From positions 34,107 to 98,106 of the IMG/VR virus record IMGVR_UViG_3300017971_000228: a stretch of 64,000 nt of DNA; one strand, 5' to 3'. Source of the DNA: a virus. The position numbers and the translations under genes are program-made. Below are positions 8,246 through 60,784 of the stretch, piece by piece (within the stretch, counting starts at the first letter, position 1; each line of letters opens with the position of its first letter). Below the pieces are notes generated by a model. The model was not told the origin of the DNA, ran no database searches, and worked only from the letters and a program-made list of their open reading frames with translations.

Positions 8246-8257
8246 GAGGAGGATCCA

Positions 8258-9819: not shown

Positions 9820-9820
9820 C

Positions 9821-14382: not shown

Positions 14383-14393
14383 GGGAGACGGGC

Positions 14394-16275: not shown

Positions 16276-16284
16276 GTAGAGCGA

Positions 16285-17028: not shown

Positions 17029-17040
17029 GAAGGAGACTCT

Positions 17041-18120
17041 ATGGGAGTATGGGGCGATACCCAGATGGCCATGCTGCACGAACTGGGACCCAAGGTGCAA
17101 GACAATGAGATGTCCTGGAACGATGCAGCAGAGATCATCAGCAAGACGGGGGAACGCCGGAGCGCACAGGGATGCAGGAACCGATGGAAGCGAGAGAGAT
17201 TACAGCCTAGAAAAGAACAGACGCCGGAAGCTGTACCGATAGAGTTAACGGATCCCAGCGTAGACTGGGACGAGTGGATCACGCACCTTATCAAACGACA
17301 GGAGATGGTGGAGGAAGCTGACCCCATCTTCACGTACGGCCGGACCCGCATCGACACGGACAAGCCGATCATTTACCAAGCTGTGGGCGACATCCACATG
17401 GGTTCGCGCTACGTGGAGTACAAGGAGTTCCGTGCAACCGTCCACCGGATGCTGGATACGCCCAGGGTCTACTGGGGCATGCACGGTGAGGACGTGGAGG
17501 GGTTCAATACCAGCTTCAAGGACGCTTCAGGTGTCCTGAACCAGCTGGTACAGCCGAAGATCCAGCGGGCTTTGGACCAACGGCTGCTGACGATGCTTCA
17601 CGAGAAGGGACGGCTGCTGTACGGGTGCGCCGGCACGCCCGGACACGGTGTCATCAAGATCATTGGCCAGGACTTAGTACAGGACTTGTACCAGGGACTG
17701 CATGTCTGGTACTTCGTGGGCAAGGCCATCTTCGTCCTGGAGGTGGGGGAGCAGCAATACGTGTTCATGGTGGGGCATCGACTTCCCGGAACCAGCATCT
17801 ATAACCCCAACCACGCCCAGATCCGTGCGCTGCTCTACGACTGTCCGGTAGCGGACTTCATCGTCTCGGGCCACACGCATGCCTATGGCTACCAGGAGTA
17901 TATGCATCACGAGTTGGCCTACCGTGCGGGGGTGATGCCGACCAACCGAACCCATCTCGTGAACGTCGGTACGGCGAAGACGGGGCCGGACCCCTACACC
18001 ATGAGCAATTGGCGGCAAGGGGTGATGGAGTACCCAATGTTTTCGCTTCATCCCACACGCCATGAAATCAAAAGGGTCTATGGATGGGATGACATGGACC
18101 ATTATCTGGGACTGAACTAA
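17041..18120 (+). CDS. Calcineurin-like metallophosphoesterase with N-terminal SANT/HTH-like segment
   Basis: 359 residues, SD GAAGGAG. Metal-binding motifs of the family are visible: GDIH (residues 116-119), the HGED segment near 148-151, GTPGHG near 198-203, and GHTH (277-280). Residues ~10-55 look like a SANT/Myb-type DNA-binding helix set (WNDAAEIISKTGERRSAQGCRNRWKR begins around 26). Phage enzymes of this kind can act on nucleic acids or cyclic nucleotides. Its place between tail fibres and lysis genes is unusual for a replication nuclease, so the substrate is open. Confidence 0.75.
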   Translation: MGVWGDTQMAMLHELGPKVQDNEMSWNDAAEIISKTGERRSAQGCRNRWKRERLQPRKEQTPEAVPIELTDPSVDWDEWITHLIKRQEMVEEADPIFTYGRTRIDTDKPIIYQAVGDIHMGSRYVEYKEFRATVHRMLDTPRVYWGMHGEDVEGFNTSFKDASGVLNQLVQPKIQRALDQRLLTMLHEKGRLLYGCAGTPGHGVIKIIGQDLVQDLYQGLHVWYFVGKAIFVLEVGEQQYVFMVGHRLPGTSIYNPNHAQIRALLYDCPVADFIVSGHTHAYGYQEYMHHELAYRAGVMPTNRTHLVNVGTAKTGPDPYTMSNWRQGVMEYPMFSLHPTRHEIKRVYGWDDMDHYLGLN

Positions 18121-39050: not shown

Positions 39051-39529
39051 AGATTCTATCCGTAGACCTAGCCGCTCGCGCCTCCGGCTTCGCACTCTTC
39101 GACAACGGTGAACTCATCTCCCACGGTACGATTATCATTCCCAAGCTGGACTCGCACCACCAGTGGATGTGGGATCTGTACGAGGACTTCTGCGATAGCT
39201 TGCCCTGGGACGATGTGGAGCACGTGGTGGTGGAGTTCGACCAGAACATCGCGGCCTATTCCAAGATGAATGTCAAGAGCAAGCGGCGGATGTACTCGGC
39301 GATGGACGTGCTGATCCTGGCGAAGCATGCCATGTCGGATGCGGAACTGCATGAAGTCAAGCCTCGATCCTGGCAGAAGGCGATGCTGAGCGGATTCCCC
39401 GGCAGCACCAAGGACGCATCGGTAGCGGTGGCGCGGTCCATCTGGCCCTCGGAAGCGTGGACGGAGCATGATGCGGACGCGGCGTTGATGGGGGAGTGGT
39501 GGAGGAAGGATCGTCAGTGGGAGAGCTAG
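39047..39529 (+). CDS. RuvC-like Holliday junction resolvase
   Basis: 160 residues from ATG 39047, nine bases after GGAGG; ATG 39038 is the alternative. RNase H-fold acids are in place: D7 (ILSVDLAARASGFALF), E63 (HVVVEFDQN) and the H141/D144 region (TEHDADAALMGEWW). It would resolve branched DNA before packaging or in recombination with the annealing protein. Overlaps the next methyltransferase by 13 bases. Confidence 0.8.
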   Translation: MKILSVDLAARASGFALFDNGELISHGTIIIPKLDSHHQWMWDLYEDFCDSLPWDDVEHVVVEFDQNIAAYSKMNVKSKRRMYSAMDVLILAKHAMSDAELHEVKPRSWQKAMLSGFPGSTKDASVAVARSIWPSEAWTEHDADAALMGEWWRKDRQWES

Positions 39530-42500
39530 GGCCCTATGAACCCGACACCATAGTCCATGGCCATGTGCTGGAAGTGCTAAGACAGCTGCCGGACGAGAGT
39601 ATTCATTGCTGTATCACCTCACCTCCCTACTGGGGCCTACGCGCATACGGCACCCAGCTCCAGGTCTGGGGAGGGGATAGCGAGTGTCGGCATGTGTGGG
39701 GATTAGAGCAAGCGAACATCTGTCAGACCGCCGGTCTGACAGATAAGCAGATGACCAACAGGGGGAGCTATCATGGTGGAGGCACCAATAGTTTCTGTTC
39801 CCTCTGTGGTGCATGGCGTGGGGAGCTAGGACTTGAACCGTCGCCTGAACAGTTTGTTCAACACTTGGTGGAGATATTCAGGGAAGTGCGGCGGGTGTTG
39901 AGACAGGATGGGACGCTGTGGCTGAACCTCGGCCAGTCATACTGGGGTGGCAAAGGACAAAGCAATTATGCGTTCCAAGAACGGCGAGAGAGTCCATCCA
40001 TTGAAGGTAAACAGCACAACATAACCAGCATGGGGGAAACGCGACCGTCGGATGGTAGTCACGCTGTGTTCAAGCCTAAAGACCTCGTCCCCATCCCCTG
40101 GATGGTAGCGATGGCTCTTCAGCAAGATGGCTGGTGGTTGCGGTCATCCATCATCTGGTGTCTTGCTGGTGAGACTCCTCTACTATGTCGGGTTGACGGT
40201 CGGATCTGGCACGGCACCATTGAGGAGTTGCAGCGCCGATGGGCAGAGTGGCAGACAGTTGAAATGCCCACGATGGGCAAGGGCTACTCCAGGCACTGGG
40301 TCAAGGTTCGTTCTGTGGTGCAGACTGGAGTGCGTGAGGTGAAGCGCATAACTCTCACCAACGGTGCAGAGGTGCTGGCTACCGGCGACCACAAGTTTCC
40401 GGTCAGAAAGAGCACTCTGGCGGGGAGGACATTGAAGTGGATGAATGCGCCTGTCTCAGTACCAGTTAGCGATCTGAGTCCTGGAATGTACCTGTACCAG
40501 AACACACAAATTGAGTCTGGTCTCCCAGAAGGAACAGTACAGGACTACAAGAATGGATACTGGGTTGGCTTCTACTTAGCAGAAGGATATCGAGTAAGTA
40601 CGAATTATGAAACTCTCAGGTTGGCCTGCGGAACACAGGACCGAGAGATTATCAATCGGCTGATATCCTGGGGGATCCCCTTGACTGTAATTGAGAGAGA
40701 GGGGGAGCGACTAACTATCAACCTGCGCATAAGACATGGCGGGGCGGCGTGGAGGGATGTTATCCTATCTCATATAACAGGCCGAAGTGCTGCTACCAAG
40801 AAGCTTAAGCAGGACGTCTTCAACCGCAGTCTCTTATTCTTAGAAGGACTGTTGTATGGCTTTCTGGACGGGGATGGAACTTGGGATGAAGCGGGGCGTC
40901 GGTGGCGCGTCGGGATGACCGCTAAGAACAAGACCCTAGTGAATCAATTCGAGGCCATTTGCCGAATCCTGGGACTAGAGTTTCGGCGTGAGAGGATCAA
41001 GGATGTGGGGGCGTTTGGCAAGGTACATAAGGCGGTCAGATTCAACATCATCAATCTCGCAGCCAACTACCGAGGTAAGGGCAAGATCGTTGTAGAAGAT
41101 ACGGTTACTAGGAGAATCCGCAGCATTGATCCAGCAGGAAGTAGATCTGTTTACGACCTAGAACTAGAGCCGTTGTACGGTGGCGAAAGAGCGAATCAGT
41201 GGGTGCCATCTAGTGGTGAGACTTCGGATGCGAGGAAGGTTCCCTACAATCATCTCTACTTCCTTGGCAATGGCATCTGGACTCATAACTGCAAAGGATC
41301 ATCTTTCGCTACCCATCAAGCCGAGTGTCCTCACTGCAACCACAAGTTCGAGACACAGTACAGCGGATCATGTATGCCTGAGTCGGTGAAAGATCGCCCC
41401 ACTCAGAGCTACGAATACGTCTTCTTGCTGGCGAAGGACAAACGGTATTTCTATGACCAGGAAGCGGTAAGGGAACCGCACTCCCGCGACTGGTCGCGGG
41501 AGTCATGGGCACAGCAGGTCAACTATGGCACCAAGACACAGAGTTCGCTGGGGCAGCTACATGGGGGGAACAAGACAATAGCGGAGACATACAATCCTTC
41601 TGGCCGCAACTTGAGATCGGTTTGGACCATCAACCCCCATCCTTTCAATGACTGGATACAAACCGTCCGTCTGGTCCGTGTGGGACTGGATGGCGTTTCC
41701 GATGGCATGATGCACATAACGTCTCCAAGTTGTCCAGTTCATGGTTGTTTGGGTCGTCCAGATGATGGACGTGGAGAAGATGGTCAGAGCCACATATCAC
41801 GCACTGATGGTTGTCCCGACCCAGAGCCTGAGTCCTTGCTTGCTTATAGTTCCACACGTCCCTTGCTGCCGAAGCCGGGTTGTAGTTCGGGTTCGCAGGT
41901 CCACCAGTGTTCTCATGCTGCCATTGGCCATAGCAATCAAAACCACAGAACGGACCGCGCTCGGTTGACCAGTCCTTCATGTAGGCTTTGCGCTCAAAGC
42001 TCTTGCCGCATTGGCGACAAACAAGAGTTACTCGTTTGCGCTGTGCTTCATGAGAACATGCCCGACTGCAATACTTGGCCGGATGAGATGGGCGCTCGTT
42101 TACTGGATCGAATCCCTTACCACATTGTTGACAAGTCTTCATACTTGCCTCCTTCCTGTACTTGTGGATTCTATCACAAAGTTACCAAGGAGTCAAGTCA
42201 TTTCGCAACCTATCCCCCCGAACTCATCACCCCCATGATCCTTGCTGGCACTTCAGCCCGTGGGGTTTGTCCTAAGTGTGGGAGTCCGTGGGAGAGGGTG
42301 GTGAAGGGGACAGGCAATATGGTGCAACAACACTGGGCTCCTGGTACACAAGAAAAGATAGACACTGCCCAGGGTAAACACGGCAATAGCAGCGTATTCA
42401 ACACAGGGTACATCGAACAGCGGACTACTACTGGCTGGCAACCCACCTGTTCATGCGGCCACGAAGATACCGTGCCGGCTATCGTCTTGGACCCCTTCAT

Positions 42501-42627
42501 GGGCAGCGGTACGACAGCGATGGTCGCCCTGGAGAATCGTCGTCAGTTCCTGGGTATTGAACTGAATCCAGAGTATGTAGCGATGGCAGAGAACCGCATA
42601 GCGGCGGTGCAGCCGAGGATGCTATGA
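39517..42627 (+). CDS. DNA methyltransferase (M3) carrying an intein and an antisense HNH insertion
   Basis: 1036-residue precursor from GTG 39517. Exteins: GELGPYEPDTIV (as in M1 and M2), SPPYWG motif IV (~37-42), a conserved SSIIW segment, MPESVKDRPTQSYEYVFLLAK, RSVWTINPHPF, SHFATYPPELITPMILAGT, a zinc knuckle (CPKCG...CSCG) and motif I LDPFMGSGTT. Residues 215-591 are an intein placed right after SSIIW. A second block of ~180 residues between NPHPFND and SSHFATYP lies antisense to an HNH gene and reads open. Whether enzyme containing that block is active is unknown. It starts within the resolvase gene. Confidence 0.85.
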   Translation: MGELGPYEPDTIVHGHVLEVLRQLPDESIHCCITSPPYWGLRAYGTQLQVWGGDSECRHVWGLEQANICQTAGLTDKQMTNRGSYHGGGTNSFCSLCGAWRGELGLEPSPEQFVQHLVEIFREVRRVLRQDGTLWLNLGQSYWGGKGQSNYAFQERRESPSIEGKQHNITSMGETRPSDGSHAVFKPKDLVPIPWMVAMALQQDGWWLRSSIIWCLAGETPLLCRVDGRIWHGTIEELQRRWAEWQTVEMPTMGKGYSRHWVKVRSVVQTGVREVKRITLTNGAEVLATGDHKFPVRKSTLAGRTLKWMNAPVSVPVSDLSPGMYLYQNTQIESGLPEGTVQDYKNGYWVGFYLAEGYRVSTNYETLRLACGTQDREIINRLISWGIPLTVIEREGERLTINLRIRHGGAAWRDVILSHITGRSAATKKLKQDVFNRSLLFLEGLLYGFLDGDGTWDEAGRRWRVGMTAKNKTLVNQFEAICRILGLEFRRERIKDVGAFGKVHKAVRFNIINLAANYRGKGKIVVEDTVTRRIRSIDPAGSRSVYDLELEPLYGGERANQWVPSSGETSDARKVPYNHLYFLGNGIWTHNCKGSSFATHQAECPHCNHKFETQYSGSCMPESVKDRPTQSYEYVFLLAKDKRYFYDQEAVREPHSRDWSRESWAQQVNYGTKTQSSLGQLHGGNKTIAETYNPSGRNLRSVWTINPHPFNDWIQTVRLVRVGLDGVSDGMMHITSPSCPVHGCLGRPDDGRGEDGQSHISRTDGCPDPEPESLLAYSSTRPLLPKPGCSSGSQVHQCSHAAIGHSNQNHRTDRARLTSPSCRLCAQSSCRIGDKQELLVCAVLHENMPDCNTWPDEMGARLLDRIPYHIVDKSSYLPPSCTCGFYHKVTKESSHFATYPPELITPMILAGTSARGVCPKCGSPWERVVKGTGNMVQQHWAPGTQEKIDTAQGKHGNSSVFNTGYIEQRTTTGWQPTCSCGHEDTVPAIVLDPFMGSGTTAMVALENRRQFLGIELNPEYVAMAENRIAAVQPRML
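40159..41289 (+). mobile_element. Intein with LAGLIDADG endonuclease in methyltransferase M3
   Basis: 377 residues. Block A is CLAGETPLLC (Cys1), block B contains ATGDHKFPV. LAGLIDADG-like helices are GYWVGFYLAEGY and LEGLLYGFLDGDG. Block G ends FLGNGIWTHN and the +1 residue of the C-extein is Cys. All residues for self-splicing (C1, His-Asn end, Cys+1) are present. The insertion point is the conserved IIW segment beside the active site, a typical intein target. Confidence 0.9.
41645..42142 (-). CDS. HNH homing endonuclease, antisense inside methyltransferase M3
   Basis: 165 residues read on the minus strand. Two N-terminal zinc knuckles (CQQCGKGF, CRQCGKSF) are followed by NUMOD-like PANPNYNPASAARDVWNYK and an HNH core (CVICGSDHLLHVHHLDDPNN then LETLCASCHRKRH). 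A perfect SD (AGGAAGGAGG) and its own promoter lie upstream. The gene fills nearly all of a block missing from related methyltransferases. It looks like a freestanding homing gene inserted antisense. Confidence 0.85.
   Translation of the reverse strand: MKTCQQCGKGFDPVNERPSHPAKYCSRACSHEAQRKRVTLVCRQCGKSFERKAYMKDWSTERGPFCGFDCYGQWQHENTGGPANPNYNPASAARDVWNYKQARTQALGRDNHQCVICGSDHLLHVHHLDDPNNHELDNLETLCASCHRKRHPVPHGPDGRFVSSH
42168..42196 (-). promoter_or_regulatory. Promoter of the antisense HNH gene
   Basis: Minus-strand TTGACT (42191-42196), a 17-base spacer and TAGAAT (42168-42173), each one mismatch from consensus. The start codon is 26 bases farther on. It lies inside the methyltransferase gene, so the mobile gene carries its own expression signal. 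Confidence 0.75.
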
Positions 42628-50738: not shown

Positions 50739-52193
50739 ATGCCTTCGGCGGAGCCTGAGTTGAATCTCAAAGCGCAACCCGGTCGGCAGCAACGCTTCTT
50801 GAGCTGCCCGGTGGACATCGCCATCTATGGTGGCTCCGCCGGCGGCGGCAAAACGCACGCCTTACTTCTAGAGCCTACCTACCACTACAAAGTCCCTGGC
50901 TTCTCGGCGGTATTCTTTAGGCGGACGTACCCTCAGATCACCATGCCGGGTGGCCTGTGGGACGAGTCGATGAAGATCTACAACGCCCTGGGTGGACGGC
51001 CACGCAAGGGGGAGCTGGATTGGCGCTTCCCTTCGGGAGCGTCCATCACCTTCCGTCACATGGAGCACGAAGACGACAAGTACAAGTACCAAGGGGCCCA
51101 GATCTGCCTGGAGTGCTGGGATCAGTTGGAAGAGATGAGCGAAGGCCAGTTCTTCTACCTGCTATCCCGTAACCGTTCAGTATGCGGGGTGAAGCCGTAC
51201 ATTCGAGCCACGTGCAACCCCGATCCTGATTCATTCCTGGCCGACTTCATCTCCTGGTGGATCGCTGATGACGGCTACGCCGATCTGAGTCGTGAGGGGA
51301 AGATCCGGTGGTTCGTGCGGGTGGGAGATGACATCGCCTGGGGCGACTCCCGTGCCGAGCTCATCTCCAAGTACCCACCTCCAGACTACGAACCGAAGTC
51401 AGTTACTTTTATCCCGGCCACTATCTTCGACAACCCGGCGCTCCTGCAGGCGAACCCCAGCTATCTGGCCAACCTGATGTCCCTTCCGCCAGTGGAGAGA
51501 GAACGTCTGTTAGGAGATGTCAAGCGTGGCGGCAACTGGAAGATCCGCCCAACAGCAGGAACCTTGTTCAACCGCGCCTGGTTCGGCATCGTAGACACCA
51601 TCCCAGCGGGGGGAGTGGACTGCCGCTACTGGGACTTCGCCGCTACGGAAAAAGAGGTGGGGGGCCATGACCCAGACTTCACGGCCTCCGTTCGCATGCG
51701 CTACCTGGACGGCATCTTCTACATCCTGGACTGTACCGCCGACCGCATAGGACAAGTGGCCGCAGACAAGATGATGTGCAACCTGGCTCAACAAGACGCC
51801 CAGGACTGCCAGGACGTTGGCGCACGCTACACCATCCGCTGGGAGCAAGAACCGGGCGCCTCCGGCAAACGTGAAGGCCAACGCCTCGCCGCCATGCTGG
51901 CCGGCTACGACGCTCGCCCCGTCGCATCCCGTGAAGACAAACTCATCCGCGCCCACGGTCTCTCAGCTCAAGCGTCCGTAGGTAACGTCAAACTACGCCG
52001 GGGCCGCTGGAACGAATCATGGCTCACCCACATGCACAACCAACCCCAGACTCCTAAGAAGGACATTATGGACGCCAGCTCAGGCGCCTTCAATGCCCTC
52101 ACCCTCTACGCCCGAAGCCAACCGGATCTCAACCAGTCGTACATGGGCTCACGCTGGGGAGCACGCAAGACTTCATGGAGTAAGTGGAGATAG
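50739..52193 (+). CDS. terL: Terminase large subunit
   Basis: 484 residues with a perfect SD (AAAGGAGGTGA). Walker A GGSAGGGKT (31-39), an acidic Walker B-type segment (LECWDQLEEM, ~124-133), coupling motif near RATCNPDP (~156-163), and an RNase H-like nuclease start YWDFAATE (D299). The enzyme drives ATP-dependent DNA packaging and cuts concatemers. The TAG stop is followed by a long open frame in the same register. Confidence 0.95.
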   Translation: MPSAEPELNLKAQPGRQQRFLSCPVDIAIYGGSAGGGKTHALLLEPTYHYKVPGFSAVFFRRTYPQITMPGGLWDESMKIYNALGGRPRKGELDWRFPSGASITFRHMEHEDDKYKYQGAQICLECWDQLEEMSEGQFFYLLSRNRSVCGVKPYIRATCNPDPDSFLADFISWWIADDGYADLSREGKIRWFVRVGDDIAWGDSRAELISKYPPPDYEPKSVTFIPATIFDNPALLQANPSYLANLMSLPPVERERLLGDVKRGGNWKIRPTAGTLFNRAWFGIVDTIPAGGVDCRYWDFAATEKEVGGHDPDFTASVRMRYLDGIFYILDCTADRIGQVAADKMMCNLAQQDAQDCQDVGARYTIRWEQEPGASGKREGQRLAAMLAGYDARPVASREDKLIRAHGLSAQASVGNVKLRRGRWNESWLTHMHNQPQTPKKDIMDASSGAFNALTLYARSQPDLNQSYMGSRWGARKTSWSKWR

Positions 52194-52208
52194 GAGGGGG
52201 GTACTCCC

Positions 52209-52775
52209 ATCGCAAACCACGGCGGCCGTGCGCACGAAGAAATAGTCAGCCTCATCCGCTACGCAGTCGGCAGCGTCCTGCTTGACGAAGGGCTGATCCT
52301 GGGCGTGATCGGAGACGACTGGCTCATGGCATTCATGCTCGGGACGCTAGGGCAAGGGCTAGGTTCACGTGGTTCAAACTACCCGGACCTACTCTTCACC
52401 TTCAAGCAGGGCCCACCGCTCCTACTCGAAGTGGGTGGCTACGATCCAGGCAAGTGGCCCGAAGAACTGCCAGTAGTTCACGTCGCAAAGAACCACCGGG
52501 TGTCTCTCGTCAACTGGACGGGTAGGCAAGAAGAATTCACCGCGCTGACCCTCATCCGGACAACCGTACACCATCACTTCTACCACGAACGAGTCAAACA
52601 GTGGGCGGTAGAAGACGAGGAACTGATGGAACGGCTGCTCTACGTGCAGGAAAAGGGCGGCGATGAGCCACCAGAAGAACCGAAACGACCAAGCCGAGGC
52701 AGAAAAGATGAACAACTGCTCGTAAAAGCGGCAGGGGGGTGGGCAGTCTGGAACCGAAATCGGCGGAATTGGTAG
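52209..52775 (+). CDS. Post-terminase protein with no standard start (ATC or readthrough)
   Basis: The frame continues in register from the codon after the terL TAG to 52775. Protein-like sequence (HGGRAHEEIVSLIRYAVGSV) begins at 52218, well before the first standard start codon (GTG 52305, no SD). A GGAGG run at 52193-52197 precedes ATC 52209. Either ATC is used, or ribosomes read through the amber codon, or translation begins at 52305 and drops a conserved-looking helix. The body has EVGGYDPGKWPEELPVVHVAK and a charged C-terminal helix. Family not recognised. Confidence 0.55.
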   Translation: MANHGGRAHEEIVSLIRYAVGSVLLDEGLILGVIGDDWLMAFMLGTLGQGLGSRGSNYPDLLFTFKQGPPLLLEVGGYDPGKWPEELPVVHVAKNHRVSLVNWTGRQEEFTALTLIRTTVHHHFYHERVKQWAVEDEELMERLLYVQEKGGDEPPEEPKRPSRGRKDEQLLVKAAGGWAVWNRNRRNW

Positions 52776-53411
52776 GCGAAATGAACGACGCAGGGGGCGG
52801 GAAATGCGGAACGGGTCAGTGGGACTTGCGGAAACGCCAACCGACGGGCACGCGCCGACGCGCCCACAAAACTGCGGGGCGACAGCGGCTCCGATCATCG
52901 TGCCGTTGGCGTGGTTCAAATCAAGCGGCGGGGTGCCCCCTCGGGATTCGCGGATGGGTTGGTATAATGTACCTTATACCAACCTAGTTCTTCCCAATTG
53001 GCGTAGTTTCTGTATAGATGGGGCGTGCAAAGTGGGAACATTCACTCAGAAGTACCCAGGGCGGTACTCCATGAGAGAACAAGGGTGCGTGAGAAATTGG
53101 CCGGGGGGAGGGGGTTCCGGAACCCTGGTAGGGTTACCGAAAGCGATCTGGAGAAGAGCTGACGCACAAAATGATGAGTTCGGGGACCTCAACGCGGCTG
53201 CGCACGGTGGATTTCAGCGTCCAAGTTCACGCGAAAAGTGTCAGAATCACCAGAATTTCCAGAAATGGCGGATCGGCCCTGCGCCAGCCTCTCCCACAAT
53301 TTTCCCTACTCCCAACCCATCTATACCCCTATGGGAACGGGGGGCTTTGACGATCCCTACGCTTTCGGCCCTTGAGTGGAATGGCCAGTTTTTTTGTAGA
53401 GGGGGTTACGG
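52776..53411. other. Non-coding stretch after terminase region
   Basis: About 635 bases with no gene I can support; long open frames here have atypical composition. It holds a perfect inverted repeat at 52957-52984, the palindrome GGGTTCCGGAACCC at 53112-53125, a G-rich run (53101-53114), and a T7 run at 53389-53395 after a weak GGCC/GGCC stem. Proximity to terminase makes a packaging (cos/pac) site or a late regulatory region possible. Confidence 0.5.
52957..52984. promoter_or_regulatory. Perfect 11-bp inverted repeat overlapping an extended -10
   Basis: GGTTGGTATAA and TTATACCAACC flank a six-base TGTACC centre. The left arm includes TGGTATAAT, an extended -10 promoter element (TATAAT 52963-52968), with no good -35. 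The arrangement suits an operator that shuts a promoter, or a recombination/processing site. Confidence 0.55.
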
Positions 53412-53498
53412 ATGCTTGAACGGGTAGCGGCGTTGGTGTGTTTGGTAGGCTGCTTCGTGATGATAGGGGTAGTGACGTGGATGGAAAGGAGGAGGTGA
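53412..53498 (+). CDS. 28-residue membrane peptide
   Basis: ATG after AGAGGGGGTTACG. One membrane helix (VAALVCLVGCFVMIGVVTW) with a basic MERRR tail. First of three small membrane genes before the junction-repeat array. Confidence 0.5.
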   Translation: MLERVAALVCLVGCFVMIGVVTWMERRR

Positions 53499-53559
53499 TA
53501 GTCTGTGACACGAAACCTGCTGTGGTGGGTGTGTTTCGTGTGGTGAAGATGATTGGCGC

Positions 53560-53577
53560 ATGCGAAAGGAGGCGTGA
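53560..53577 (+). CDS. Five-codon leader ORF MRKEA
   Basis: ATG CGA AAG GAG GCG TGA, second clean copy of the ATGCGAAAGGAG cassette. Its AAGGAGG is the SD of the next gene, whose ATG shares one base with this stop. Confidence 0.4.
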   Translation: MRKEA

Positions 53578-53747
53578 TGTTTCTAAACTGGCTGAGAAGT
53601 ACTACGGGGACTCCGATTGTATGGATAGTTCTAGGATGGGTAAGTTATGAGCTTTGGGCCGCAAAGGGCTGGCCGATGTGGGCGTGGATACTGTTTGTCG
53701 TAGGTGTAGGCACCGCTGATGCGGTACTAGAGGCGATGCTAAGGTGA
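53577..53747 (+). CDS. 56-residue membrane protein
   Basis: Two hydrophobic segments (TPIVWIVLGWVSYELW, WPMWAWILFVVGVGTADAV). SD AAAGGAGGC is inside the MRKEA leader. Function unknown. Confidence 0.55.
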   Translation: MFLNWLRSTTGTPIVWIVLGWVSYELWAAKGWPMWAWILFVVGVGTADAVLEAMLR

Positions 53748-53869
53748 TCGGCTACATAGCCCTCGGCTTTGTCCTTGGCGTGGCGGCATCGTGTGCGGCG
53801 TACTGGTGGATCTACGAGCACCAGGACCGAGTGTGCGATGCCATTGAGGCGGCACATCGAGAGTGGTAG
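53744..53869 (+). CDS. 41-residue membrane peptide
   Basis: GTG overlapping the previous TGA. One membrane helix (IGYIALGFVLGVAASCAAYWW) followed by a polar helix. Function unknown. Confidence 0.5.
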   Translation: MIGYIALGFVLGVAASCAAYWWIYEHQDRVCDAIEAAHREW

Positions 53870-53881
53870 GGGGAGGGGGCG

Positions 53882-54097
53882 ATGGTGGCGAATGAGAGTA
53901 TAGCCCTTAGGAATCTCGCCGTTGACGGTGGCGAGATAGGCGTAGAGGCACATATTGATGAGCAAGTGATAGCTCTCAATATCGATGCTGTGGACAGGGC
54001 ATGGGTTCGGTTGACCAAGGTGGAGGCGCAGGGGCTTGTCAACAGGCTAGAGGAGGCTATTGCAATACTGGGGTGGAGGGAGGCCGACGATGAGTGA
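53882..54097 (+). CDS. Small hypothetical protein ending in EADDE
   Basis: 71 residues, strong SD GGGGGAGGGGG. Strand-rich start, helical end (VEAQGLVNRLEEAIAIL). The last codons and stop form the repeated GGAGGCCGACGATGAG junction with the next gene. Confidence 0.55.
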   Translation: MVANESIALRNLAVDGGEIGVEAHIDEQVIALNIDAVDRAWVRLTKVEAQGLVNRLEEAIAILGWREADDE

Positions 54098-54627
54098 GAC
54101 TATCTGTCCACGATGCCAGGGCAAGGGGATTGTGATAGCAGAGATGGACAGCAAGGACCTGCCCGATGGGCTGGTATGGCAGTACATTTGCCCTGATTGT
54201 GACAGCTACGATAGGCTGAAGAAGGACGTGGTAACACTGTTGAAGGAGGCCGACGATGAGCACTAGCTATTACAGGCTGAAATCGCCAGTAACTTGCTTG
54301 AGGCTAAAAAAGGGCCCGAGGCACGACTATCTTTCCATCTGGGTGAATCACGCTCTTGTAGGACAGCTTACCCTTGCCAACAGGGAAACCCAATCGTTCC
54401 TACAGATACTGGCGGAGTGGAACGAGCCGCCCATGAGAACACACTGGGGAGGGTCAGGCAGGGGAGCAGTTGTTACCATCAACGATCCAAACCTATCTGA
54501 CGAGGATCTTCTCATCAGCGAGTACGGACAACTACTGACAGTGGCGCAGATCAAAGAACGAGATGGAGCAAAGCGTAAGGATGGGATGCCCACCGAGATG
54601 TTCGGGTATGAGGAGGCCGACGATGAG
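54079..54627 (+). repeat. Junction repeat family GGAGGCCGACGATGAG (3 copies)
   Basis: Identical 16-mers at 54079-54094, 54245-54260 and 54612-54627. Each holds the SD (GGAGG) and the ATG of the next gene while encoding the C-terminal EADDE of the previous one. Three identical boundaries between unrelated small genes point to cassette-style recombination or copying. Confidence 0.75.
54090..54266 (+). CDS. 58-residue zinc-ribbon protein
   Basis: Starts at ATG 54090. ICPRCQGKG and ICPDCDSY form a DnaJ-like four-cysteine ribbon. Ends EADDEH within the second junction repeat. Confidence 0.6.
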   Translation: MSETICPRCQGKGIVIAEMDSKDLPDGLVWQYICPDCDSYDRLKKDVVTLLKEADDEH

Positions 54628-54630
54628 TGA
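54256..54630 (+). CDS. Hypothetical small-gene-array protein
   Basis: 124 residues with strands (YLSIWVNHALVGQLTLANRE) and an acidic helical C-terminus ending EEADDE. No family recognised. Bounded on both sides by the 16-mer junction repeat. Confidence 0.55.
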   Translation: MSTSYYRLKSPVTCLRLKKGPRHDYLSIWVNHALVGQLTLANRETQSFLQILAEWNEPPMRTHWGGSGRGAVVTINDPNLSDEDLLISEYGQLLTVAQIKERDGAKRKDGMPTEMFGYEEADDE

Positions 54631-54829
54631 AGGACTCCCCAGGAAAGTAGCTATCGAGTATGAACTGCTTTTCTGGCATCGAATGTGGGTCTACCGATGT
54701 TGTTGGTGCGATCGACTGTTCACGATTCTAGCTGTGTTCGAGGATGAACATGGCGAGCCGAAGGCGTGGTCGGGACAGGCTGGTGATGACATGCACTGTC
54801 CATTCTGTGGAGGGGAGCAAAACGCATGA
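54623..54829 (+). CDS. 68-residue zinc-ribbon protein
   Basis: ATG 54623. Begins MSEGLPRK, a shortened form of the GLPLPGRE leader sequence. CCWCDRL and CPFCGGE form a ribbon. ATGA overlap with the next gene. Confidence 0.55.
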   Translation: MSEGLPRKVAIEYELLFWHRMWVYRCCWCDRLFTILAVFEDEHGEPKAWSGQAGDDMHCPFCGGEQNA

Positions 54830-55071
54830 AAGCTAATGATGCAGGACTCCCCGTGCCTGGAAGAGCTAACATGGTTCTTCAAGCCATCAAGAGAAGGGAG
54901 TATGCTATTGCAAGGGAGATATGTGACGACACTGGCATACCACGTTCTACAGTGAACCGCTATCTCTTGTGGCTGTATAAGAAAGGCTTGGTGCGCAGAT
55001 CGCTTATCGAAGACCAGACTTTCTTTGGAACATACTTATACGCAGCACTGGAGTACAACAATGAACCTTGA
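54826..55071 (+). CDS. Winged-helix DNA-binding protein with fused GLPVPGR leader
   Basis: 81 residues. After MKANDAGLPVPGRAN comes a compact winged helix (EYAIAREICDDTGIPRSTVN, LLWLYKKGLVRRS). An in-frame ATG at codon 16, preceded by GGAAGAG, could initiate the domain without the leader. Probable local regulator of the small-gene array. Confidence 0.6.
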   Translation: MKANDAGLPVPGRANMVLQAIKRREYAIAREICDDTGIPRSTVNRYLLWLYKKGLVRRSLIEDQTFFGTYLYAALEYNNEP

Positions 55072-55111
55072 CACCAATGGACTTCCTCTGCCTGGGAGGG
55101 ACGATGCCTAG
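55061..55111 (+). CDS. Leader peptide MNLDTNGLPLPGRDDA
   Basis: A 16-codon ORF whose ATG overlaps the previous gene and whose end overlaps the next start (ATG 55104). It carries the SD GGGAGGG for that gene. Translation of it would open the predicted CTTCC/GGGAG hairpin. Confidence 0.5.
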   Translation: MNLDTNGLPLPGRDDA

Positions 55112-55412
55112 CTATTACAAGTTCAAGTGTGAAGCATGTGGATTCACTGGCATACGCTATCGAAACGTCAAGAAGTGTCCATCTTGTGATGAGCATGAAT
55201 TATTCAGATTTGAACCACGGCCTGGGCCAGAAACATCGGCAGTCTTGGATGTGCTTTGCCAGATGTTTGACGAGATGGAGTTGACACCAGACGAAGTAGA
55301 CGCAGAGTTGAGACGAGTGGGCTATGATCCTGATGAAGTAGCTGAGAGATTCCGCAAGATTGTGGAGCCGCTACTAGAGCAGAAAGAGAGGGAGATCAAT
55401 GCTAGAGAATGA
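55104..55412 (+). CDS. Zinc-ribbon protein with helical tail
   Basis: 102 residues from ATG 55104. FmdB-like ribbon (YYKFKCEACGFTGIRYR, KKCPSCDEHEL), then a long acidic helical region. The open frame upstream to 55068 overlaps the leader and lacks its own SD. Confidence 0.6.
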   Translation: MPSYYKFKCEACGFTGIRYRNVKKCPSCDEHELFRFEPRPGPETSAVLDVLCQMFDEMELTPDEVDAELRRVGYDPDEVAERFRKIVEPLLEQKEREINARE

Positions 55413-55701
55413 AGGAATGATGGCTGATAGAAGCTGGTGCAGCAAGGATGGGTGGCAGCATATCCATCCTGACGTGGAGTGGGATTACCTGCGGATGGAG
55501 ACCCTGCGTAAAGAACTGAAGCCGATACTGGACAGCTATATCCACTGGGAGCTTTCGGATGGAGGGGAATGGTCTTCGGGGGATTGGGAGCATTATGGGC
55601 AATTGGTCTGTGAAGTACGTCTGGTATTGACTACGTTTCAAGATCAGTTGATGCAACGACTTGTCCATGCATTCCTTGGAGCTAACGATGAACCTCAATG
55701 A
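55399..55701 (+). CDS. Hypothetical small-gene-array protein
   Basis: 100 residues, ATG 55399 five bases after GAGAGGGAG. Helical, Trp-rich N-terminus (SWCSKDGWQHIHPDVEWDYL). Overlaps both neighbours. No family recognised. Confidence 0.5.
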   Translation: MLENEGMMADRSWCSKDGWQHIHPDVEWDYLRMETLRKELKPILDSYIHWELSDGGEWSSGDWEHYGQLVCEVRLVLTTFQDQLMQRLVHAFLGANDEPQ

Positions 55702-55924
55702 CGCCAAAGGACTCCCTCTGCCTGGGCGCAGATGGGAACTACTGATTTTCCTGGATCGCCACCTTTGGCACTGGCATGTCAACAGGGCCGTAGGCAAGTA
55801 CAAGCCCTTCCTCTGGGAGACGTGGCTAGGCCCATTCTGTTTTCGGGTATGGCGTGATCCACGATCCGTGTCTAGCGTGAGCAAGGCGGTTAGGGTACTG
55901 GGGAGGATCAATGCAATTCAATAA
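55688..55924 (+). CDS. Hypothetical protein with fused GLPLPGR leader
   Basis: 78 residues from ATG 55688; begins MNLNDAKGLPLPGRRWELL. The rest is aromatic and basic (FLDRHLWHWHVNRAVGKYKP). Here the leader is part of the protein, not a separate ORF. Confidence 0.55.
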   Translation: MNLNDAKGLPLPGRRWELLIFLDRHLWHWHVNRAVGKYKPFLWETWLGPFCFRVWRDPRSVSSVSKAVRVLGRINAIQ

Positions 55925-56147
55925 CCAAGGACTCCCTCTGCCTGTCTTGTTGCCTTGGGCATTGCCCCCTGTCGATTGCATGGCTGTAAATGTAGGTGGA
56001 TTAGTCCTGTTGCCCTGGGAAGATGAAAGAGCAGAAACGATGGTCTTTGTTGAGCCGTATCCTCCTTGGGACAGACATGAGTTTGTTCGGCACGAGTACC
56101 GCTGCATTGGGGATGTGTGCAACTGGGTATGGAGGAGGATTGCATGA
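55911..56147 (+). CDS. Hypothetical protein with fused GLPLP leader
   Basis: 78 residues, SD GGGGAGG. Begins MQFNNQGLPLPVLLPW; this copy has lost the GGGAGG half of the repeat. The C-terminus is Trp- and Cys-containing (EYRCIGDVCNWVWRRIA). Confidence 0.55.
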   Translation: MQFNNQGLPLPVLLPWALPPVDCMAVNVGGLVLLPWEDERAETMVFVEPYPPWDRHEFVRHEYRCIGDVCNWVWRRIA

Positions 56148-56185
56148 AGACCGAAGGACTCCCTCTGCCTGGGAGGGAGCTATGA
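56144..56185 (+). CDS. Leader peptide MKTEGLPLPGREL
   Basis: A 13-residue ORF with ATGA overlaps at both ends. It is the cleanest leader copy; CTCCC/GGGAG hairpin plus GGGAGGGAG SD are intact. Confidence 0.55.
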   Translation: MKTEGLPLPGREL

Positions 56186-56394
56186 CAGCAATCGTAGCAA
56201 TATCCAACAAAGGGGTGCTTCATCGAGTGGTATCAGGCAAGTTTGATCCAACATGGAATTGCGATGTCAGGGTTGCTTGTGGAGCTATCTCAGATTGGTG
56301 CTACATGGGCATGAGAGATGTTGAGACGTTGAGTGGGCCAAGGTGTAAGCGGTGCTTTGGGGAGGAGGTGGAAGAAGATGAAACCCAACCCTAG
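56182..56394 (+). CDS. Hypothetical small-gene-array protein
   Basis: 70 residues from ATG 56182. AIVAISNKGVLHRVVSG start and a C-terminal C/C pair (GPRCKRCFGEEVEED). Its SD lies only in the leader peptide codons. No family recognised. Confidence 0.55.
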   Translation: MTAIVAISNKGVLHRVVSGKFDPTWNCDVRVACGAISDWCYMGMRDVETLSGPRCKRCFGEEVEEDETQP

Positions 56395-56425
56395 CGAACT
56401 CCCTCTGCCTGGGAGGGGGCTATGA
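56378..56425 (+). CDS. Leader peptide MKPNPSELPLPGRGL
   Basis: A 15-residue ORF with its ATG inside the previous gene's last codons and a TGA overlapping the next ATG. Hairpin and SD intact. Confidence 0.55.
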   Translation: MKPNPSELPLPGRGL

Positions 56426-56634
56426 CGCATAAGCGTAGGTGGAGAGTAAGGATTGATCCCAAGAGACCACACCAGTCCAAGATATGGTTCGATGACATAC
56501 CGCTGGCAGGCACATACTGTGTCCGCATAGAGTCTCGTGACAACTATTCATGGGCAACCTTCTGTGTGCCTGGAAGATACCGCAACGTGGACTGGCTGAC
56601 AGAGGAGGAAAGCGATGAACTTGCGGCTGAATAG
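56422..56634 (+). CDS. Small hypothetical protein
   Basis: 70 residues, strand-rich and basic at the N-terminus (THKRRWRVRIDPKRPHQSKI). May be a small nucleic-acid-binding beta protein. No family recognised. Confidence 0.5.
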   Translation: MTHKRRWRVRIDPKRPHQSKIWFDDIPLAGTYCVRIESRDNYSWATFCVPGRYRNVDWLTEEESDELAAE

Positions 56635-57121
56635 TAACGGCTTACCCGAACCTGGGAGGGAGCTGGATGAATACATGGCGACGAAAGTAATGGGATGCCG
56701 TTCGGTTTGGGTACGCTGTAAGATAGGGGGTACTACACTGATAGGGGGTTGGTATCTCACTGAAGAAGACTGTAAGGCTGCTATCACTGAAAAGCTGCGT
56801 GAGGAACTCTACTATGCTAGAAAACTCTGGGTGCGCAATGGAGCACACTGGAAATGGGCTGATGAATGGACGCCCTCCACCACCCACGCCTTCTTCCAGG
56901 TGATGGAGGTGGATAGTGACTGGCGATGGAGATTCACAGAGCATACGCGATGCTTGTTTGCATACCTATTCCGAGACGAACAGCATCAGGTGGCCTTTGA
57001 GATATACCCTGACGAGCCAACGAGCAAGCCGATATGGGCGCTTGTGAACTGGGCCGACTACCCCTCCCGAGAAGAAGCCTACGCCCATGCAGTCTGTTTG
57101 TGTGGGTTCCAAGGGAAGTGA
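56615..57121 (+). CDS. Hypothetical protein with fused GLPEPGREL leader
   Basis: 168 residues beginning MNLRLNSNGLPEPGRELDEY; an in-frame ATG at codon 21 could start the body. It contains a helix-rich middle (CKAAITEKLREELYYARKLW) and ends with a Cys pair (AVCLCGFQGK). The last member of the leader family. Confidence 0.5.
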   Translation: MNLRLNSNGLPEPGRELDEYMATKVMGCRSVWVRCKIGGTTLIGGWYLTEEDCKAAITEKLREELYYARKLWVRNGAHWKWADEWTPSTTHAFFQVMEVDSDWRWRFTEHTRCLFAYLFRDEQHQVAFEIYPDEPTSKPIWALVNWADYPSREEAYAHAVCLCGFQGK

Positions 57122-57131
57122 GGCAGTCTAG

Positions 57132-57410
57132 CTGACACGCTGGAACCGCAAGACCGTCCGCGAATACGCCCCCTACACCCGATGGGATTGGACCGATCCG
57201 ATGCATGATGCGTTGGACTGCTTATCGGGTTCTTCCTGTGAACTGTTCAAGATGGCGTACTGGCAGGGCTGGCCCAGGGAGCAGATCGGGGTGTATTGCC
57301 AGCGTTGGGACAAGAAGAGGACATTGACTGCCGGCCAGGTAACTACTCGACTCAACGATATCTGCGAGGAGGTGGCTTGTCTGATGAACCAACACGAGCA
57401 GAGGAGGTGA
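57132..57410 (+). CDS. Sigma-region-4-like protein 1 with probable CTG start
   Basis: 92 residues if CTG 57132 is the start; a TAG ends at 57131 and GAGG lies 9-13 bases upstream. The N-terminus TRWNRKTVREYAPYTRWDWTDPMHDAL matches the next gene's RWTADTVRDYAVYPKYDASDPMHAV, so the protein must begin here and not at ATG 57201. The C-terminal half is HTH-like (QGWPREQIGVYCQRWDKK). Probable transcription regulator. Confidence 0.55.
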   Translation: MTRWNRKTVREYAPYTRWDWTDPMHDALDCLSGSSCELFKMAYWQGWPREQIGVYCQRWDKKRTLTAGQVTTRLNDICEEVACLMNQHEQRR

Positions 57411-57412
57411 GG

Positions 57413-57655
57413 ATGGGGCAGAGGTGGACGGCTGATACGGTAAGGGACTACGCAGTCTATCCGAAGTACGACGCATCCGATCCGATGCACGCTGTAGTGC
57501 AGGCGCTGCCAGATGTGGACCGCACGCTGTTCATCGACAGCTATTGGGAGGGCAAGACGCGCAGGGAAGTGGGCGAGGAGTGGGGCGTGACGGGCTGCAC
57601 CATCTCCGTTCACCTGACGCGCATACTGGGCAACATCGCCTCCTGCTTGAGTTAG
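57413..57655 (+). CDS. Sigma-region-4-like protein 2
   Basis: 80 residues from ATG 57413 with SD GGAGGTGAGG. The HTH reads DSYWEGKTRREVGEEWGVTG followed by ISVHLTRILGNI, like sigma region 4 or ArpU-type late regulators. Tandem paralogue of the previous gene. A good candidate activator of late or packaging genes. Confidence 0.6.
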   Translation: MGQRWTADTVRDYAVYPKYDASDPMHAVVQALPDVDRTLFIDSYWEGKTRREVGEEWGVTGCTISVHLTRILGNIASCLS

Positions 57656-57692
57656 GTTAACGGTTGTTACGAATCTAATCTGGCAAGGGGGT

Positions 57693-57868
57693 GGGGCTAT
57701 AATTAAGGTGAGGCATATTATCATTCATGCTCAGCCCCTGCACAACCTACCACTGAGGGATGGAGGGGCCACGGTAGGGACTGCTGGGTGGCAGGAGGTA
57801 GGCTCTGGTTCGTAGCACTGGGCCGGGGCGTGGGGAACCCCAGGGGCCAACTCACGCCAAGGAGGAAG
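57693..57868 (+). promoter_or_regulatory. Folded leader with TATAAT and a looped polar motif
   Basis: GGGGCT (57693-57698) pairs with AGCCCC (57733-57738), enclosing TATAAT (57698-57703) and an inner stem TGAG-CAT/ATG-CTCA (57709-57733). The inner loop is exactly ATTATCATTC. A further hairpin GGCGTG/CACGCC lies at 57827-57858, just before the SD AGGAGGAAGG. No good -35 is seen. Probably a promoter and structured leader for the sugar operon. Confidence 0.5.
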
Positions 57869-57869
57869 G

Positions 57870-58013
57870 ATGCCGGATTGGGTTTGTGAAGTAGCGTTGT
57901 GGGTGACGCATCTGCCCTGGACGCCGATGGACATTACGTCGCCGATCAAACACGTGGGGTTGTATGTGGCAGTAACCTTGGCCTGGGCGCTGGTATTGGG
58001 GCTGAAGGCATGA
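57870..58013 (+). CDS. 47-residue membrane peptide
   Basis: ATG after GGAGGAAGG. Two hydrophobic stretches (VCEVALWVTHLPW, GLYVAVTLAWALVLGL). ATGA-coupled to the next gene. Confidence 0.5.
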   Translation: MPDWVCEVALWVTHLPWTPMDITSPIKHVGLYVAVTLAWALVLGLKA

Positions 58014-58225
58014 AGTGTCCCATCTGTGAGAAGGAAGTTGGCCAGACCATCATCGGACATCTGACCGTTACCCACGGCATGAACCCCGTGCAGATGCTGG
58101 CGACGCTGTTCTGGCAAGTGGATAGGTTGGAGCGGTTACTGGATGAGCTGGCGGAGGCCGTGAAACAGGAGGTAGGCTTGCTGGCAAAGCTGGAAGAGCG
58201 TGTTGCTGAGGAGGAAATCGAATGA
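58010..58225 (+). CDS. C2H2-type zinc-finger protein with coiled tail
   Basis: 71 residues. CPICEKEVGQTIIGHLTVTHG is a plausible CCHH finger of the MucR/Ros-like or C2H2 type; a charged helix follows. Ends in the SD of the oxidase gene. Possible local regulator. Confidence 0.55.
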   Translation: MKCPICEKEVGQTIIGHLTVTHGMNPVQMLATLFWQVDRLERLLDELAEAVKQEVGLLAKLEERVAEEEIE

Positions 58226-59286
58226 TCGCCGGTTCTATGCCCCCCTACGTCTTCGGCTCTGGTGCCATCCAGTCGCTGCCTAGGTTGCTAGCGAAGCGGC
58301 GGCCTGGGTGGGTGCTGTGGCTGGTAGATCACTACTTTCGCGGGCTGAGAGAAATCTGCCTGCATGGTTCGAATATCTCAGACCAGCGGTTCTGTGTGGA
58401 TACCACCTTTGAGCCGACGGTGGAATCCGTGGATCGTATAGCTGAGGTCGTGCGAGACATAGGTGATGCGCCTACTGCCATCGTCGCCATTGGCGGCGGT
58501 TCCACCATGGACACCGCCAAGGCAGTCTCCGTGCTCCTCACCAATCCCGGCAAGGCAGCGGATTATCAAGGCTGGGATCTGGTGAAGGAACCCGCGGTCT
58601 ACAAGATCGGCGTTCCTACCATCTCGGGGACCGGCAGCGAGTCATCCTCTACGGCTGTCCTTACCAACCACGCCAAGGGGCTGAAGCTGGGGATCAATTC
58701 GCCGTACTCACGATTCGATCAGGTGGTGCTGGACCCGGACCTGACGAAGACGGTGCCGCACGAGCAGCGGTTCTACACGGCGATGGACACGTGGTTTCAC
58801 TGCAATGAGTACCTGTATGGACATGAGCACAACCGACTGACAAGTGAGTTAGCAGAATCAGCGGCAGGGCTAGTATCAGAAGTTTTTGTACCATACTGGT
58901 TGGACCCGCCAGCGGACGACGATGCAAGAGAAATGCTGATGGTAGCATCCTATCTAGGCGGTGCTGCTGCTGGATGCACAGGGCTAGTTCATCCATTCTC
59001 GGCGGGCCTGAGCATGGTACTGGGGCTGAGGCACGGGTTGGCGAATTGCGTGGCGGTACGGGGGTTGCAGGATCTAGCGCCGATGTATCACTGGTTCATG
59101 GACTACTTGGAAGATAGCCACATCGAGCTTCCCACTGGCCTCTGCGCCGACCTGACCGATGACCAGATGGAACAACTCTATCAATCCACCATCGTCCACG
59201 AGAAGCCCTTGCGGAATGCGCTGGGGGATGGGTGGCGGGACGTGCTGACACGGGAGAAGGTGCTAGAGATCTTCGGGAGGATGTGA
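58222..59286 (+). CDS. Iron-type alcohol dehydrogenase, KdnB-like (Kdo 8-oxidase)
   Basis: 354 residues, SD GAGGAGG. GGGSTMDTAKAVS (~94-106) is the NAD-binding motif; GTISGTGSESS-type segment and the histidines of the metal site (HPFSAGL, LRHGLANC) follow. It resembles KdnB, which oxidises C8 of Kdo before amination, and a DegT-family aminotransferase follows two genes later, as in the KdnA/KdnB pair of Shewanella. Specific substrate is inferred from that pairing. Confidence 0.65.
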   Translation: MIAGSMPPYVFGSGAIQSLPRLLAKRRPGWVLWLVDHYFRGLREICLHGSNISDQRFCVDTTFEPTVESVDRIAEVVRDIGDAPTAIVAIGGGSTMDTAKAVSVLLTNPGKAADYQGWDLVKEPAVYKIGVPTISGTGSESSSTAVLTNHAKGLKLGINSPYSRFDQVVLDPDLTKTVPHEQRFYTAMDTWFHCNEYLYGHEHNRLTSELAESAAGLVSEVFVPYWLDPPADDDAREMLMVASYLGGAAAGCTGLVHPFSAGLSMVLGLRHGLANCVAVRGLQDLAPMYHWFMDYLEDSHIELPTGLCADLTDDQMEQLYQSTIVHEKPLRNALGDGWRDVLTREKVLEIFGRM

Positions 59287-59588
59287 TGGCAGAATCAGAT
59301 GAACTGAAGGAGCTCAAGGGTCAGATCACTTCGCTCAAGGGGCGACTGACTAGGCTCGAGAGAGACAGGGACGAGCTAAAGGAGCGCCAGGACCGCGCCC
59401 TGCTCATCGAGGGCATCATCACGCCCGACATGGAGCGGTCGGAGACCGTCGTCACCTTCATGCGCAAGGTGGTGCTGATGGGGCTGCTGACCAAGGACGA
59501 GGCGCGGGCGCTGTTCCGGCGGGTGGTGCGGCCGGACGGGTATCTCTTGAGCAGGTTCGACGCGGTGGTGCTGGACAGGAGGGAGTGA
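59286..59588 (+). CDS. Coiled-coil hypothetical protein
   Basis: 100 residues from ATG 59286 (SD GGGAGGATG). Residues ~3-40 are a heptad-like coiled coil (LKGQITSLKGRLTRLERDRD), followed by a helical domain. ATGA-coupled to the aminotransferase; possibly an accessory. No family recognised. Confidence 0.5.
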   Translation: MAESDELKELKGQITSLKGRLTRLERDRDELKERQDRALLIEGIITPDMERSETVVTFMRKVVLMGLLTKDEARALFRRVVRPDGYLLSRFDAVVLDRRE

Positions 59589-60784
59589 TGGATTGGAAGA
59601 TCCCCTTCTCCGGTCGCCAGCACGAGTACACCCTTGACGAGATGGTGGTAGTCCTGAAAGCCATGATGGGCGCCAACCCACTTACCCAGGGCGGCTACCG
59701 AGACGAGTTCGAGGCGGCCTTCGCAGACTACCTGGGCGTGAGTGGGGGGTGCTTCGCGGTGAGCAACGCTACGTGTGCTCTGGAGCTGGCGGCGCAGCTC
59801 TGCCAGTTTGAGGAGGGCGACGAGGTCATCATCCCGGCGCACACATTCACGTCCACGGCCTACCCGTTTATCAAGCACGGCGCCAAGGTGGTGTGGGCTG
59901 ATATTGATCCAGAGACGCATGTGGTGACGCGCCACACAGTCCAGCGTTGTGTGACAGAGCGGACACGAGCGGTGGTTGTTGTGCATCTCTATGGCTATGT
60001 AGCTGATACGGGTACGGTTTCAGAGGCCCTGTATCTCAAGCATGGATTCGTGATAGAGGATGCTGCGCAAGCACTTGGAACACGCTTTGAGGCTGGTAGT
60101 GGGCAGTATCACTATGAGTGGCATCCTGGCGCCTATGGACACATGGGTGTGTTCTCTTTACACTCTCACAAGAACATCACAACGCTGGGCGAGGGTGGTG
60201 TTCTGTTTGTAAATGACTGGATGGACGAGGACCTGGTCCCCATGCTCCGACACAACGGCCACAAGCCCTATCCCGAGCGTGAGGACTACTGGGTGCCGGC
60301 CATGGGCGACGTGGACCTGCCAGAGCTGAACGGCAAGCCACTGATGCCGCACAACTTCTGTCTGGGCGAGGTGGAGTGTGCTTTGGGGACGAAGCTGTTG
60401 GAGAGGATAGATAGTATCAATGCCGAGAAGCGACGAAGGGCACTGTGGTTCATTGATGAGCTCTCAGGATATGAACAGCTTTCATTTCACCGAGTTGATT
60501 CTGAACGACACAACTACCACTTGTTGGTTGCACGCTATGAAGGAACTACAGAAGATCGTAATTCTCTCATACGGAGTCTCGCGCGAGATCATGGGGTTCA
60601 ATGTGTCGTCCAGTACATGCCCCTGTACCGCTATCCCTTCTACCAGAAGCTAGGGCTGGGTGAAGCGGACTGTCCGGTGACGGATCAGTGGTACGATCAC
60701 ATGGTGAGCTTCCCGTTCCAGCATTCGCTGACGGATGGGGAGCTGGAGTACGAGGTGGAATGTGTGAAGGAGGTACTGGGATGA
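59585..60784 (+). CDS. DegT/DnrJ/EryC1 aminotransferase, KdnA-like
   Basis: 399 residues. PLP-binding lysine K195 in SLHSHKNITTLGEGG; D158 (IEDAAQALG) contacts the pyridine nitrogen; GDEVIIPAHTFTSTAYP is typical of the family. These enzymes aminate keto-sugars. With the KdnB-like oxidase it would make an 8-amino-Kdo-type sugar, or another amino sugar. Confidence 0.75.
   Translation: MMDWKIPFSGRQHEYTLDEMVVVLKAMMGANPLTQGGYRDEFEAAFADYLGVSGGCFAVSNATCALELAAQLCQFEEGDEVIIPAHTFTSTAYPFIKHGAKVVWADIDPETHVVTRHTVQRCVTERTRAVVVVHLYGYVADTGTVSEALYLKHGFVIEDAAQALGTRFEAGSGQYHYEWHPGAYGHMGVFSLHSHKNITTLGEGGVLFVNDWMDEDLVPMLRHNGHKPYPEREDYWVPAMGDVDLPELNGKPLMPHNFCLGEVECALGTKLLERIDSINAEKRRRALWFIDELSGYEQLSFHRVDSERHNYHLLVARYEGTTEDRNSLIRSLARDHGVQCVVQYMPLYRYPFYQKLGLGEADCPVTDQWYDHMVSFPFQHSLTDGELEYEVECVKEVLG

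Follow-up and report, generated by a model that had tools for sequence, protein, structure and literature searches.

Why should the same short coding repeat stand at the start of one small phage gene after another, and is it as RNA, as peptide or as DNA at the gene boundaries that it has been kept? This question is raised by an array of small, overlapping genes on the plus strand, which lies between the large terminase gene and a group of sugar-metabolism-like genes. The window analysed here, a stretch of 64,000 nucleotides, comprises bases 34107-98106 of a virus record of 98106 bases that encodes a serine recombinase, a repressor-like protein, a ParB-like protein, primase and DnaB-like replication proteins, DNA methylases and a large terminase.

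The repeated start module

The original prediction, made from the letters of the window, described seven copies of a ~28-base repeat at gene starts, of which four were fused in frame to the gene and three were complete ORFs. Direct reading of the sequence confirmed the number, the position and both kinds of copies, and added a shortened copy at 54623 (Table 1, copies c0 to c7); the common core is shorter than had been proposed, at about 21 nt. The module consists of a methionine, 3-7 mostly polar residues and the peptide GLPLPGR, and it occupies seven of eight consecutive start codons between 54826 and 56668. Each of the seven copies shares its reading frame with an ATG that lies 12-24 nt further upstream and is itself preceded by an SD-like sequence of the GGAG type, and the linker between ATG and repeat differs in length by whole codons only.

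Table 1 Repeat copies, leader ORFs, predicted hairpins and neighbouring genes in the array (window positions).
Feature	Position	Strand	Peptide	Description
Junction repeat A, copy 1	54079..54094	+		GGAGGCCGACGATGAG; end of one gene (...EADDE, stop) and start of the next
Junction repeat A, copy 2	54245..54260	+		Identical to GGAGGCCGACGATGAG
Junction repeat A, copy 3	54612..54627	+		Identical to GGAGGCCGACGATGAG; adjoins c0
c0	54623..54829	+	MSE-GLP-RK (start)	Gene of a 68-aa Cys-rich protein, Zn_ribbon match sub-threshold; shortened eighth repeat copy, adjoining junction repeat A
c1	54826..55071	+	MKANDA-GLPVPGR	Fused copy: MKANDAGLPVPGR and winged HTH protein, 81 aa
c2	55061..55111	+	MNLDTN-GLPLPGRDDA (stop)	Leader ORF MNLDTNGLPLPGRDDA (stop), 16 codons; 8-nt overlap with the next ATG (55104)
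c2 predicted hairpin	55082..55102	+		CTTCCTC/GAGGGAC, 6/7 pairs; contains the next gene's SD
Gene behind leader c2	55104..55412	+		102 aa; zinc-ribbon-like N-terminus, Pfam matches below cut-off
Cassette-free gene	55399..55701	+		100 aa; sole exception among the eight consecutive starts
c3	55688..55924	+	MNLNDAK-GLPLPGR	Fused copy: MNLNDAKGLPLPGR and 64 residues without database match
c4	55911..56147	+	MQFNNQ-GLPLPV	Fused copy: MQFNNQGLPLPV..., 78 aa, without database match; GR lost
c5	56144..56185	+	MKTE-GLPLPGREL (stop)	Leader ORF MKTEGLPLPGREL (stop), 13 codons; ATGA overlap with the next gene
c5 predicted hairpin	56159..56179	+		CTCCCTC/GAGGGAG, 7/7 pairs; -15.3 kcal/mol local fold; contains the next gene's SD
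Gene behind leader c5	56182..56394	+		70 aa, without match
c6	56378..56425	+	MKPNPS-ELPLPGRGL (stop)	Leader ORF MKPNPSELPLPGRGL (stop), 15 codons; ATGA overlap with the next gene
c6 predicted hairpin	56399..56419	+		CTCCCTC/GAGGGGG, 7/7 pairs, one G-U; contains the next gene's SD
Gene behind leader c6	56422..56634	+		70 aa, without match
c7	56615..57121	+	MNLRLNSN-GLPEPGREL	Fused copy: MNLRLNSNGLPEPGREL..., 168 aa, without match; G, L and P codons of GLP swapped for synonyms

When both strands of the window were searched with the 18-base core GGACTCCCTCTGCCTGGG, allowing up to three mismatches, six forward matches, all within the cluster, and no reverse matches were found, compared with 0.05 in Markov shuffles. 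No further N-terminal copies were seen in the whole 98-kb record, that is, in the window and the other 34 kb. A screen for five-residue N-terminal words common to at least three SD-preceded ATG ORFs, extended to about 2.05 Mb of other loci (a mixture of phage and bacterial pieces rather than a random survey), returned only this cluster. The repeat is thus far beyond chance.

A second repeat, GGAGGCCGACGATGAG, occurs in three identical copies just upstream of the cluster, each of which ends a gene in EADDE (EADDEH once) and starts the next one (MS), and the two repeats come together at the start of the gene at 54623. This junction repeat and the mostly regular 220-240-base spacing in the array suggest that the junctions were copied as the array grew.

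Peptide conservation and leader architecture

Compared with c5 as the reference, the other six copies showed 15 nucleotide differences over 40 compared codons, and 37 of the 40 residues were identical. Placing the same changes at random retained 31.0 +/- 1.6 residues (P = 2e-4 for kappa 1 and 3e-4 for kappa 4, which favours transitions), and the fused copies c1, c3 and c7 alone gave P = 5e-5 (kappa 1) or 4e-4 (kappa 4); with 15 differences, a single reference and copies treated as independent descendants, these P values are indicative. Synonymous variation among the copies includes AGG, AGA and CGC for Arg and CTC, CTT and TTA for Leu. This residue-retention test is the main, indicative evidence that the N-terminal extension of the fused copies is held at the peptide level. 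The peptide was seen at N-termini only, and in c1 the HTH_IclR match starts at residue 13, where the tag ends, leaving the tag outside the domain. Judged from sequence, the likeliest reason for keeping the peptide in the fused proteins would be a role as a docking or targeting tag.

In the leader copies c2, c5 and c6, the short ORF has its own SD, with GGAG/GGAGGAGG-type sequences upstream of its ATG, and the SD of the next gene (GGAGG) lies inside the leader's GGG-AGG-GA codons, 4-5 nt before the next ATG. The predicted overlap of the leader stop with the next ATG is exact at c5 and c6 (4 nt, ATGA) and looser at c2 (8 nt). From this arrangement we infer a translated start element, in which an SD-like sequence and an ATG are followed by a short polar linker and GLPLPGR and which may have been copied along with the gene junctions during growth of the tandem array of small genes. 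Ribosomes recruited by the leader's own SD would finish translation on or beside the downstream start codon and reinitiate at the next ATG, aided by the internal SD, and the leader would both deliver ribosomes and melt the local hairpin over this second SD. Rather than being a feature preserved by selection, the hairpin would mostly result from Leu-Pro codons (CTN CCN) lying opposite the SD-encoded Gly-Arg(-Glu). Experiments in E. coli and Haloferax have measured termination-reinitiation at overlapping gene pairs, where an SD usually assists (PMC6728339), and the delivery of ribosomes by short ORFs is a proposed role of coupling according to a recent review (PMC12548453).

We prefer, at roughly an even chance of its being right, a duplicated and translated start module whose leader form couples the next gene by termination-reinitiation and whose conservation chiefly concerns the peptide rather than an RNA switch. 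Several points stand against this reading. The leaders are near-identical in DNA, and recent copying alone could explain their conservation; free peptides of 13-16 aa tag nothing, so that a single protein-level function fails to cover all copies; and the match between stem and leader (3/3 versus 0/4) is as a selected hairpin predicts, though the 3' arm of the stem is also the SD. A further proposal, which we put forward as doubtful, is that one peptide has two uses in one array, as N-terminal tag on unrelated small proteins and as free fore-cistron, with the tag encoding the next ribosome-binding site; the array would then amount to a bicistronic expression system that is both natural and modular. 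Overall, the module would best be described as a new form of short-leader translational coupling that has, in addition, a conserved and unexplained peptide.

The predicted hairpin and other explanations

At the heart of the element, the original prediction had placed a hairpin in which CTCCC pairs with GGGAG, the SD of the following gene. This pairing was found in the leaders, where the CTCCCTC/GAGGGAG stem forms 6/7 pairs in c2 and 7/7 in both c5 and c6 and a stable hairpin over the downstream SD is predicted in all three, but not in the four fused copies (c1 2/7, c3 3/7, c4 2/7 and c7 4/7 pairs), for which no such hairpin is predicted. With -15.3 and -14.3 kcal/mol, the c5 and c6 junctions rank among the most stable local folds in a set of 56 phage starts (mean -5.9, sd 3.2) picked by a simple rule rather than by annotation; the c2 junction fold is less unusual in this set. 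When the GLPLP codons were replaced by all synonyms, unweighted and with the SD kept, 11% of the variants of c5, 63% of those of c6 and 65% of those of c2 folded at least as well, and because synonymous variants often do so, the hairpin would largely follow from the peptide together with the SD. Mean SD accessibility at the leader junctions was 0.40-0.47 (the c2 value being computed 2 nt off), compared with 0.51 +/- 0.18 phage-wide. A covariance-model search of positions 52000-58500 with Rfam 15 gave no match at E up to 0.1, and promoter and terminator scans gave no signal above shuffles. Among the paralogous copies, the peptide is kept and the stem bases vary nearly to the extent that had been named as speaking against the hairpin, with synonymous changes in c1, c3 and c7 that break the pairing (AGG to CGC or AGA, CTC to TTA). 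Of the modular switch predicted to be common to unrelated small genes and opened by leader translation, there remains a modular start element on gene bodies without detectable similarity, with the next SD of each leader lying within a predicted hairpin and its opening or feeding by the leader plausible; the hairpin as the core feature is not supported, as four of the seven copies are without the stem and its stability is not clearly beyond that of synonymous codon choices.

We consider it unlikely that the hairpin is a selected switch which silences the next gene until the leader is translated, with the fused copies as its decayed derivatives. Such a switch would agree with the next SD lying in all three leader hairpins, with the extreme c5 and c6 junction folds, with the loss of the stem in four of four fused copies and with leader differences that mostly retain pairs via G-U (T-G in c2 and in c6), yet the fused copies keep the peptide and not the stem, the leader stems are not clearly stronger than their synonymous alternatives, the accessibility of the SD at leader junctions is inside the phage-wide range, and three near-identical leaders give almost no covariation. 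If it were instead the DNA that is selected, the repeats could be recombination linkers, conserved boundary sequences whose homology allows small genes to be duplicated, lost or exchanged, with translation being incidental. Two distinct junction repeats in one array, their meeting at c0, the mostly regular spacing and the GC content of the array (51.6%, below the 56.4% of the window) are in line with this, as is a pairwise comparison of the gene bodies, c0 and the c2-downstream protein left out, that gave no strong pair indicative of ancient paralogy. Linkers selected as DNA should, however, keep DNA identity, whereas the fused copies change their DNA and keep the peptide, and linker lengths change only by whole codons, which leaves us to regard this explanation as quite unlikely. 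Finally, GLPLPGR could be a targeting, docking or degradation signal on several phage proteins, the three leaders being relics left when small indels severed the tag from its gene. The peptide-level constraint in the fused copies, the restriction to N-termini and the position outside the HTH domain of c1 point in this direction, but relic leaders should decay, and these are closest to the consensus and have a well-placed SD and stop/start overlaps; moreover, there were no matches to known families, and frameshifting that would rejoin tag and gene is unlikely, with c2 needing +1 and c5 and c6 needing -1. We hold this last explanation to be decidedly improbable. Programmed frameshifting was rejected, because the leaders would not all have to shift the same way and a slippery heptamer was not seen in c5.

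Known systems, relatives and genome context

The coupled start module that we prefer resembles an engineered bicistronic design with a fore-cistron (Mutalik et al. 2013, described in PMC6302717), in which a leader carries an internal SD and an overlapping stop. Both have a short first ORF with its own SD, a second SD inside it and a stop overlapping the next start, and leader translation is thought to open the structure around SD2. The phage module differs in being natural, in standing at several genes of one phage and in having the same peptide also fused to proteins, and its coupling is one that we infer. If the leaders act as proposed, they would be a natural, repeated counterpart of this synthetic design, which was built to free expression from the influence of gene context, and would illustrate a way for a phage to extend an array by small genes that come with a start already in place. 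The fused copies pose the separate question of why unrelated small phage proteins retain the same N-terminal peptide. With natural ATGA gene pairs (PMC6728339), c5 and c6 have in common the 4-nt ATGA overlap and an SD that lies within the 3' end of the preceding ORF, but in the phage this ORF is a repeated peptide module of 13-16 codons and not a full gene. E. coli iraD (PMC5574718) also has a short ORF upstream that is translationally coupled to the downstream gene, where the corresponding coupling in the phage is a proposed one; iraD is a single gene under CsrA control, whereas the phage peptide recurs at several genes.

The start-associated sequences (SAS) of cluster K mycobacteriophages, which had been suggested as the nearest analogue, turned out to be a loose one, akin in the repeated placement at starts and in the SD core. 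SAS are 13-bp repeats just upstream of start codons, mostly in gaps of >50 bp and over half the genome, and the authors describing ESAS found little support for mRNA hairpins (PMC3203893). Like the SAS/ESAS of cluster K (PMC3203893) and of cluster EF Microbacterium phages (PMC7302621), the repeat studied here is a short start-site repeat with an SD core on a subset of genes of different families; unlike them, it is part of coding sequence, adjoins or overlaps the gene before it and occurs only within about 2 kb. It lies downstream of its own start and differs in sequence from the 13-bp GGGATAGGAGCCC-type repeat found upstream of starts, and in place of the 17-bp imperfect inverted repeats that, in ESAS only, lie upstream of the SAS it has only a 7-pair stem inside the coding repeat.

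None of the searches turned up a relative that has the module; they may leave out records very near the studied genome, and absence from them is no proof of uniqueness. Degenerate peptide patterns gave no locus with more than one N-terminal copy plus an SD in viral and genome contigs, and none of 24 large-terminase relatives (34-57% identity) carries the cassette in the stretches examined; a weak lookalike in one terminase relative (L130) was explained by another reading frame. No relatives of the c1, c3 and c7 genes were found in searches for these, and the four relatives of the 124-aa gene at 54256 (L150-L153) are all without the cassette. A tblastn search of phage records with a composite tag sequence, a weak search given the short query, found none. 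An exact 18-mer scan of viral contigs returned one match, N-terminal in another phage, where about one is expected by chance as estimated from collection size; the unrelated protein concerned (L003, 149-607, minus strand) starts with MSIFNKYSKLHGLPLPGQ, is probably a chance match and has no second copy in its 45-kb record.

Neither a portal nor a capsid gene was recognised beside the large terminase in window positions 50739-58000. In one terminase relative (L126), a 549-aa ORF that is probably the portal follows soon after the terminase and is without a match in the studied record. Genes resembling NeuB, DegT aminotransferases, a cytidylyltransferase and Fe-ADH are located at both ends of the record (L004, record positions 1-17200, and window positions 58222-60784). 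This leaves two options: the phage genome is circularly permuted and has a large glycan cluster, or the record includes host sequence. A DNA methylase of 1043 aa (window 39496-42627) has a weak match to an intein splicing domain, below the Pfam cut-off, which suggests that it may contain an intein. The small neighbouring genes at 57128-57410 and 57414-57655 have an SDPMHA-like stretch in common, seen by eye and as a short DNA repeat, and look like tandem duplicates.
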